A stretch of DNA of 64,000 bases. Origin: Rhodovulum sp. 12E13. GTDB lineage: Bacteria > Pseudomonadota > Alphaproteobacteria > Rhodobacterales > Rhodobacteraceae. Below are positions 50,846 to 52,151 of this stretch, piece after piece. Position numbers and translations under genes: made by a program. The DNA lies in assembly GCF_003340565.1 (NCBI RefSeq), contig NZ_QPLK01000004.1, positions 186,001-250,000 on the forward strand, in the 5' to 3' direction. Position 1 is the first letter of the stretch; each line of letters opens with the position of its first letter. The notes under the pieces were generated by a model that worked only from the letters and a program-made list of their open reading frames with translations, was not told the DNA's origin and did not search any database.

Positions 50846-51463
50846 ATGACCCGCCAAGCCCTGCCCGGCATCCTCGCCATGGCCGCCATCGTGGTGGCCT
50901 CCAACATTCTCGTCCAGTACCTGCTCGGCGACTGGCTGACATGGGGGGCGCTGACCTACCCGCTCGCCTTCCTCGTCACCGACCTGATGAACCGTCTCTA
51001 CGGCCCGGCGCTCGCCCGGCAGGTGGTGTTCACCGGCTTCGTCGTTGGCGTGTTCTGCTCGCTCGTCGCCTCGCAGTTCGACGCCACGACATTCCGCATC
51101 GCGGTGGGGTCGGGCACGGCGTTCCTCGTCGCGCAGCTGCTCGACGTGGCCGTGTTCGACCGGATGCGCGGCCGTGCATGGTGGCAGGCGCCGCTCGCCT
51201 CGACGGTGATCGGCTCGACCGTCGACACGGCGCTGTTCTTTTCCATCGCCTTCGCTGCCGCGCTGAACGGGCTGGAGCCCGCCAATGCGCCCGTCTGGGC
51301 GCAGGAGGCGCTGCCGCTTCTGGGGGGCGGGCCGGTCGCGCCGCTCTGGGTGTCGCTCGCGGTGGCGGACTGGGGGGTAAAGCTGACGCTCGCGCTGATC
51401 GCGCTGATCCCCTTCCGCCTGATCGTCGCGCGGGCCGGCGGCGGAATGGAGGGAAGCCATTGA
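50846..51463 (+). CDS. Queuosine precursor transporter (YhhQ/DUF165)
   Basis: 205 residues with about six helices. It has the family run ASNILVQYLLGDWLTWGALTYPLAFLVTDLMNRLYGP and STVIGSTVDTALFFSIAF. YhhQ imports preQ0/preQ1 for tRNA queuosine. The 63-nt leader contains short GC hairpins, but I could not fit a preQ1 riboswitch. Confidence 0.88.
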   Translation: MTRQALPGILAMAAIVVASNILVQYLLGDWLTWGALTYPLAFLVTDLMNRLYGPALARQVVFTGFVVGVFCSLVASQFDATTFRIAVGSGTAFLVAQLLDVAVFDRMRGRAWWQAPLASTVIGSTVDTALFFSIAFAAALNGLEPANAPVWAQEALPLLGGGPVAPLWVSLAVADWGVKLTLALIALIPFRLIVARAGGGMEGSH

Positions 51464-51483
51464 CTTCTGCCGCTCACATGCCA

Positions 51484-51517
51484 ACCTCCTTCCCTGGTTC
51501 AACAACGGAAAGGAGGT
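51484..51517 (+). promoter_or_regulatory. Anti-SD hairpin masking an extended Shine-Dalgarno
   Basis: ACCTCCTTCC (51484-51493) pairs with GGAAAGGAGGT (51507-51517) with one bulged A and a 13-nt loop. It would hide the core of a 15-nt ribosome site (AAAGGAGGTGATCCA, 51509-51523) that is the exact complement of the 16S rRNA 3' end. A second anti-SD, CACCTCCT, lies at 51631-51638, so two alternative pairings are possible. Confidence 0.6.
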
Positions 51518-51523
51518 GATCCA

Positions 51524-51580
51524 GTGTCGAGAGTCATGCTGGAGAGAGGTGTCGGGACAGCGCGAGAGGCGCGCCTCTGA
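51524..51580 (+). CDS. 18-codon small ORF behind a perfect 15-nt Shine-Dalgarno
   Basis: GTG at 51524, 7 nt after AGGAGG, begins VSRVMLERGVGTAREARL and stops at TGA 51578-51580. It is too short to recognise. It lies in a 260-nt unit between the YhhQ-like gene and arfB, and a rho-independent terminator follows at 51649. Either the peptide is made at very high initiation rate or its translation is the regulated event. It could also be the SD bait of a noncoding RNA. Confidence 0.45.
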   Translation: MSRVMLERGVGTAREARL

Positions 51581-51648
51581 GGCAGCCCTCGGTGGTCGGC
51601 AGCCCGCGTTGGCGACAGCCTGACCGACCCCACCTCCTGAATGCTCGG

Positions 51649-51679
51649 AAGGGCCGCTCCACCAGGGGCGGCCCTTTTT
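51649..51679 (+). terminator. Rho-independent terminator before arfB
   Basis: Stem AAGGGCCGC / GCGGCCCTT, extendable by three more pairs, with loop ACCA, followed by a T-run (TTTTT, 51675-51679). The best intrinsic terminator in the window. Confidence 0.88.
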
Positions 51680-51725
51680 CCTTGCTGCGCTTAACACGCG
51701 GGCGCCAATCTGAGAGAGTGCCGTC

Positions 51726-52151
51726 ATGTTGCGCGTCACCGACGATATCGCCCTAGACGACTGGGAGATGACCGAGCAGTTCGTGCGGTCCTCGGGCCCC
51801 GGCGGGCAGAACGTCAACAAGGTGGCGACCGCGGTCGAGCTGCGCTTCGAGGCGGCGCGCAGCCCCAATCTGCCCGACCCGGTCAAGACGCGCCTCAGGC
51901 GGCTTGCCGGCCGGCGCTGGACCGACGAGGGCGCGATCGTGCTCAAGGTCGACGAGACGCGCAGCCAGGCCCGGAATCGCGAGATTGCGCGACAGCGGCT
52001 GGCCGAGCTTGTCGCCCGCGCCTCGGTCGCGCCCAAGCGGCGCAAGCCCACGCGGCCCACCCTCGCCTCGAAGCGCCGGCGGCTCGAGGGCAAGGCGAAG
52101 CGCGCCGAGGTGAAGGCCATGCGCGGCCGCGTCACCTCGGGCGACGAGTGA
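51726..52151 (+). CDS. arfB: Ribosome-rescue peptidyl-tRNA hydrolase ArfB (YaeJ)
   Basis: 141 residues. The class-I release-factor catalytic loop SSGPGGQNVNKVATAVELRF carries the GGQ motif near residues 26-28. The basic C-terminal tail (KRRKPTRPTLASKRRRLEGKAKR) is the part that enters the empty mRNA channel of stalled ribosomes. It hydrolyses peptidyl-tRNA on stalled ribosomes. The gene sits 46 nt after a strong terminator. Confidence 0.95.
   Translation: MLRVTDDIALDDWEMTEQFVRSSGPGGQNVNKVATAVELRFEAARSPNLPDPVKTRLRRLAGRRWTDEGAIVLKVDETRSQARNREIARQRLAELVARASVAPKRRKPTRPTLASKRRRLEGKAKRAEVKAMRGRVTSGDE

Follow-up and report, generated by a model that had tools for sequence, protein, structure and literature searches.

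A terminator-ended small RNA gene with a full-length Shine-Dalgarno sequence and a fixed 18-codon frame in Rhodobacteraceae, a candidate ribosome-gated RNA

The window analysed here is a 64,000-nucleotide stretch of the Rhodovulum sp. 12E13 genome in which a compact block of features, all on the forward strand, lies between a QueT/YhhQ-like gene (50846–51463) and the ribosome-rescue gene arfB (51726–52151). A predicted −35 element (TTGACT, 51460–51465) overlaps the stop codon of the upstream gene and is followed, after a 16-nt spacer, by a −10 element (CAACCT, 51482–51487). Column frequencies place TTGAC(A) 48–50 nt upstream of the Shine-Dalgarno sequence (SD) in most homologs where it was found, and the family promoter consensus consists of TTGACA, a spacer ending in TGTG and then CANNCT, from which we predict that the RNA starts at about 51494–51497. 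An unstructured 5’ leader (CAACAACGG, 51500–51508) then leads into an extended SD (AAAGGAGGTGATCCA, 51509–51523), with AAC lying 2–7 nt before the SD in 94 of 101 homologs. Downstream come an 18-codon mini-ORF running from GTG to TGA (MSRVMLERGVGTAREARL, 51524–51580), a hairpin around a conserved GGCAGCC motif that overlaps the stop codon (51577–51592), and a conserved 3’ strand (CCTGACCGACCCCACCTCCT, 51619–51638; CCUAACCGGCCC[A/G]CCUCC in the family RNA) that holds the downstream anti-SD CACCTCC (51631–51637). As the preliminary description had stated, the block closes with an intrinsic terminator, a long G+C stem of 13 bp followed by a T5 tract (51648–51679), of which a simple terminator scanner reports only part of the stem; aligned homologs also show a G+C stem and then a T run. 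The RNA thus ends before arfB, which lies outside it as its downstream neighbour. Leader, SD, start codon, 18-codon frame, post-stop hairpin, 3’ strand and terminator are conserved in this order among the Rhodobacteraceae homologs. Judged from its sequence, the segment from about 51495 to 51679 is a stand-alone, terminator-ended small RNA gene of approximately 185 nt.

Nearly all details of the preliminary description were borne out, far above what chance would give, the exceptions including an anti-SD upstream of the SD and a function tied to arfB. The former, ACCTCCTTCC (51484–51493), overlaps the conserved −10 element and carries CCTCC in just 5 of 101 homologs, and it is therefore almost certainly located upstream of the RNA start and no partner of the SD. 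Its hairpin with the SD forms only when upstream DNA is included in the fold; without that DNA, the SD pairs with the downstream CACCTCC. We consequently rejected the upstream hairpin as non-conserved promoter DNA.

An RNA model (R1) was built from 64 Rhodobacteraceae sequences. Exactly one copy was found in 131 of 149 Rhodobacteraceae genera, and elsewhere in the alphaproteobacteria the model gave weak matches only. This distribution, together with the fold and the covariation described below, lends good support to the earlier reading of the block as a discrete RNA.

The extended SD is, as first noted, the exact complement of the 3’ tail of the 16S rRNA of the same genome, and the match reaches 16 nt when the G of the GTG start codon is counted. 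AAAGGAGGTGATCCA occurs once in the window (the next best site has 2 mismatches), and the one further copy in the genome lies at the 16S end (L014). All exact copies examined in 61 genomes are either a 16S 3’ end or this element. An origin by chance or as a 16S fragment was rejected, since the remaining exact copies examined are genuine 16S ends and this element sits in a context of its own. In the family, the SD contains AAAGGAGGTG; most members carry a longer version that complements all 15 nt of the 16S tail, with A or G at position 11. Among the 54 homologs that the RNA model found without an exact SD, the site is mostly AAAGGAGGTGGTCCA, which forms a G-U wobble with the 16S rRNA, or is shortened to AAAGGAGGTG.

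The 18-codon frame was likewise described correctly, with 7 nt separating GGAGG from GTG, and across homologs the start codon lies 5–7 nt behind the SD core. Our set of 98 unique exact-SD Rhodobacteraceae sequences with an 18-codon frame had been filtered on length, so the decisive test is provided by the 54 genomes found by the RNA model, in whose choice neither the ORF nor the exact SD was used: 48–49 of these 54 homologs have exactly 18 codons, at SD-start spacings of 7, 6 or 5 nt. Divergent members keep the length although their peptides and flanks have changed: the spacing shrank to 5–6 nt, the start shifted along and the frame still counts 18 codons. Codon 19 is TGA, TAG or TAA, and never TGG among the homologs, although its second and third positions are each often G. 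In a broader search of 385 alphaproteobacterial genomes, the exact 14-mer followed by NTG occurred in 41, once in each, with GTG, ATG or TTG as the start codon and CTG in none of the 41 matches.

The encoded peptide behaves differently. Codons 13–18 vary freely among homologs while the P4 pairing in which part of them takes part is kept, and divergent members such as MSFEMVEQVVGFFGKDVT and MSIGIQEQLVRITCEVRI have almost nothing in common with the window peptide, sharing little beyond M-S. The constant length, the divergent peptides and the missing TGG together indicate that the length of the frame is selected and the peptide is not. The conserved start, stop and frame length suggest that the frame is translated. 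A small mRNA whose product is the 18-residue peptide would account for the conserved start, stop and frame length, for a codon 2 (TCN) that varies at its third base and for the best possible SD; the unconstrained amino acids 13–18, the change of nearly the whole peptide in divergent members and the fact that RNA pairing explains the conserved codons nevertheless make this reading very unlikely.

Folding from the predicted start places the SD core, AGGAGGUG in the RNA (AGGAGGTG in the DNA, 51511–51518), in helix P1 with CACCUCCU (51631–51638), where the downstream anti-SD reported earlier, CACCTCCT, is indeed present. The start codon lies inside the stem of the P2 hairpin (51520–51543, TCCAGTGT paired with CTGGA). 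P3 joins GUCGG of codons 10–11 (51551–51555) to CCGAC (51624–51628), P4 joins codons 12–14 (51559–51564) to 51605–51610, and the GGCAGCC hairpin covers the stop codon. Self-pairing between SD and anti-SD had been proposed as a choice between two rival anti-SDs; the pairing with the downstream CACCUCC stood, and the second anti-SD did not, the real competitor being the 16S tail. In line with the conserved pairing anticipated for relatives, 89 of 99 folded homologs join the SD to the downstream anti-SD; among the 54 model-found homologs, just 36 do so.

Comparative evidence bears on the individual helices to different degrees. The consensus fold from RNAalifold contains P1, P2 and the hairpin at the stop codon. 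Pairing is intact in 98.9% of cells for P1 and in 96.5% for the whole structure, versus 47–57% when partners are slid. Exchanging P4 strands among homologs weakened the pairing from −18.5 kcal/mol with own partners to −15.1 kcal/mol with swapped ones (z −11.7; z −12.2 in the model-found set) and the P2 test was weaker (z −3.3), values to be read in the knowledge that the sequences are related and non-independent, so that significance in the shuffle and swap tests is somewhat inflated. L346 offers a clear compensatory change in P2, and the P3 helix is changed to GGTTT/GAAACC in L032. Changes in P1 are almost all wobble-compatible, which taken alone is modest evidence, and its covariation can be one-sided only because the SD must also match the 16S rRNA; swapping anti-SD tails among homologs changes nothing and is uninformative for this helix. 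A competing helix between CACCUCC and the GGAG in codon 7 becomes the minimum free energy state once upstream DNA outside the transcript is folded along, and it is also predicted for an RNA whose SD is kept open; it was disfavoured as the main state, occurring in 2 of 99 homologs versus 89 for the SD. Folding and covariation thus support a predicted closed state, with the SD bound to the downstream CACCUCC and the start codon held in a stem.

The position next to arfB had suggested a link to ribosome rescue. Synteny upholds the neighbourhood: QueT is nearly always upstream, arfB is downstream in 86 of 95 Rhodobacteraceae loci and it typically starts shortly past the terminator. The functional link, in contrast, did not hold. 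In a congeneric genome (L013) and several others, an inserted stretch separates arfB from the RNA or arfB was not found nearby; in L013, L031, L052, L060, L126 and L219 the shift amounts to several hundred bases, and the RNA is kept. In other alphaproteobacteria the neighbours of the RNA are unrelated. Across the family the RNA is therefore not, as a cis leader would be, always upstream of and co-oriented with arfB. Since a promoter and a terminator of its own flank the RNA and it stays where arfB is displaced, a cis role for arfB is unlikely, and an arfB-tied function was rejected as the core role on the displaced arfB and the unrelated neighbours. A leader or attenuator that senses translation stress and lets transcription pass the terminator into arfB would fit the conserved QueT-RNA-arfB order, but the folds show no anti-terminator pairing either, and we regard it as the least probable of the readings weighed here. 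In two Hyphomonadaceae genomes (L076, L144), arfB is found near the RNA, upstream and divergent, which hints at an older neighbourhood.

A ribosome-gated RNA switch or small RNA is, in our judgement, the most likely reading of these data. We tentatively favour, at somewhat less than an even chance, a specific version in which a closed fold is opened by translation of the 18 codons and an exposed C-rich strand acts in trans; its steps are inferred from energies, geometry and conservation. In the absence of a 30S subunit the RNA would be closed, with the SD held by CACCUCC in P1, the start codon in P2, and P3 and P4 fastening the frame along the 3’ half of the RNA. Binding of a 30S subunit to the 5’ end would take place while the RNA is being transcribed, or by later invasion: the predicted 15–16-bp duplex between SD and 16S tail (−25.6 to −28.4 kcal/mol) outweighs the predicted cost of opening the closed fold (~9.2 kcal/mol), so that a free 30S subunit could do either. 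Translation of the 18 codons would open P1–P4, and a ribosome terminating at codon 19, having already passed P1–P3, would be parked over P4 and the post-stop hairpin, leaving the C-rich CCUAACCGGCCC[A/G]CCUCC strand exposed. The simplest guess, and the least certain step, is that this strand would then act in trans on SD-like sites, in which case the RNA would signal how much initiation capacity is free. The 3’ strand (51619–51637) also resembles the end of the 16S rRNA (CCUGCGGCUGGAUCACCUCC), and a protein such as Era or KsgA might be offered a mimic of it.

The main rival holds that ribosome capture is itself the function, because all lineages share the 5’ end. The SD and mini-ORF of such a titrating RNA would capture 30S subunits or idle ribosomes, with occupancy as the function and the fold limiting or timing it. 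This proposal would explain why leader, extended SD and start codon are common to all lineages while all 3’ parts differ, why the peptide is not conserved and why the predicted energy of the 16S duplex is so extreme. A decoy, however, needs neither a fixed 18-codon frame nor a conserved 3’ strand, the Rhodobacteraceae fold hides the SD, and a gene present once would have to be expressed very strongly to titrate ribosomes; we consider it unlikely. Less likely again is an ordinary trans-acting antisense sRNA whose CCUCC seed (CUAACCGGCCCACCUCC) blocks the SDs of mRNAs, the mini-ORF being secondary or stabilising. Conservation of the 3’ strand is strong, beyond the needs of pairing, the promoter and terminator are sRNA-like and Rfam files the relatives as sRNAs, all as this reading would have it, but the predicted fold buries the seed, conservation of the seed ends with the family, and the exact 18-codon frame with a start kept through spacing changes is left unexplained. 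Direct, testable predictions follow from the proposed closed fold, from the fixed length of the frame and from the 3’ strand that would be exposed. A single-copy RNA gene retained in nearly all genera sampled, with the longest possible ribosome-binding site and a frame whose length is conserved and whose peptide is not, points to the monitoring or tuning of translation, and its hosts, the Rhodobacteraceae, are an ecologically dominant group.

Full-length SDs of this kind also occur more widely. A scan for AAGGAGGTGATCCADTG in one genome per species returned at least 116 loci. Among the matches listed, nearly all lead into frames of 9–33 codons, hairpins and terminators come next in the loci that were read through completely, and the sources outside the alphaproteobacteria are Phycisphaerae, Gemmatimonadota, Krumholzibacteria, Acidobacteriota, Myxococcota, a spirochaete, a Nitrospinota bin and Prochlorococcus. 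This pattern suggests that the full-length SD is almost never used in ordinary genes and is used by short-ORF RNAs in several phyla. Sequestration by an anti-SD shows no enrichment in most other alphaproteobacteria or in other phyla, Bradyrhizobium excepted, and is thus a feature of the lineage and not the ancestral function; an internal anti-SD as a universal property of such RNAs found no support outside Rhodobacteraceae and Bradyrhizobium. A more ambitious proposal is that the RNA is a free-ribosome sensor, in which the ribosome and the internal anti-SD would compete for the 16S-tail complement and a fixed, peptide-independent frame would set where the ribosome parks, and that such perfect-SD mini-ORF RNAs form an unrecognised class in several phyla; as a whole we hold this to be doubtful.

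Several recurrent forms could be distinguished among these loci. In Planctomycetota, mostly Phycisphaerae (L039, L045, L047, L049, L054, L057, L102, L118, L128), a full SD precedes a frame of usually 9–12 codons (16 in L057), often of the form M..C...GLR., with strong stems before the terminator; four of them scanned against Rfam at E 0.5 gave no match at the element. Seven loci from Krumholzibacteria, Acidobacteriota, Myxococcota, a spirochaete and a deltaproteobacterium (L056, L069, L071, L082, L100, L123, L146) have a full SD, a 14–15-codon frame and an internal GAGGTGG motif in common. The Bradyrhizobium form (L070, L078, L085, L086, L106, L119, L121) carries a 14-codon frame ending in KRCHLAGIAR*; codons TGTCACCTC within this frame are able to pair with the SD and thus offer another means of closure. 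The full SD of Azospirillum and a Geminicoccaceae bin (L096, L139, L068) leads into a 57–59-codon frame that resembles a small exported protein, possibly a mini-ORF grown into a gene, and in two lactobacilli (L101, L105) it precedes a 204-residue protein, a rare ordinary gene with such a site.

Known RNAs resemble the element in single respects. The actinobacterial sRNA Ms_IGR-5 (RF02471) begins with an extended SD-like GGAAGGAGGUGGUCC; its consensus, however, has no start codon at SD spacing and carries the downstream motif GUGAGGUGG, and the window does not match it. Two loci from other phyla with a perfect SD and a start codon (L146, L123) do match RF02471, one at 41 bits and one at 29, below the cut-off of 45. 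A link to Ms1 was rejected, as RF02471 is Ms_IGR-5, another RNA. The CcnA ncRNA is an alphaproteobacterial sRNA proposed to act on ribosome-binding sites, but it is a separate gene at the replication origin for which no full-SD mini-ORF is described (PMC8959179), and identity with it was rejected on its different gene and properties. Pos19 (RSs0019) of R. sphaeroides is, like our candidate, a Rhodobacteraceae sRNA with a small ORF, but a stress sRNA dependent on RpoE (PMC5036791). The Sinorhizobium rnTrpL with its peptide peTrpL places a short frame, there translated, on a terminator-ended alphaproteobacterial sRNA (PMC7298713, PMC10117765); it differs in its leaderless AUG, its role as a trp attenuator and its functional peptide, and has neither a full SD nor an SD/anti-SD closure. 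A Caulobacter ribosome-profiling paper reports two earlier ncRNAs as translated, naming them in its dataset only, and a correspondence to sRNAs reported in Paracoccus, Ruegeria or Bradyrhizobium was not established.

The closest relative is CC2171, a Caulobacter sRNA (RF01867). The preliminary description knew of no described family with this layout, which proved wrong in part: at gathering thresholds Rfam gives no match in the block, and a sensitive scan aligns RF01867 over its full model length (1–159) to 51500–51675, with 43.5 bits (E 7.6e-8) against a gathering score of 75 bits. Of twelve relatives scanned, eleven match the family below this cut-off and one above it; class-wide, 112 of 289 genomes match at E≤1 and nine exceed the cut-off. 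Rfam lists this distant relative as an sRNA, and we found neither a paper on the function of CC2171 nor an assigned function; its homolog in Mesorhizobium huakuii is a 215-nt transcript by RNA-seq (PMC5596092). The two RNAs share the order of the 5’ block, a similar length, a terminator hairpin and a stand-alone gene. Posterior support is high for the 5’ block CAACAA-GAAAGGAGGUGAUCCAGUGUC (51500 to ~51526), the window leader being common to the consensus cAAcaAucG, and for the 3’ terminator hairpin (51648–51677), whereas the middle aligns with low confidence: the internal stems of RF01867 meet low posteriors, gaps and non-standard pairs, and covariation supports another structure. The CACCUCC strand, P1–P4 and the 18-codon frame mark the Rhodobacteraceae form; elsewhere in the alphaproteobacteria the frame counts 14 to 31 codons and the RNA folds differently. 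With the 5’ block and terminator shared and the middle different, the window RNA is, by sequence comparison, the divergent, sub-threshold Rhodobacteraceae form of a class-wide CC2171-type alphaproteobacterial RNA.
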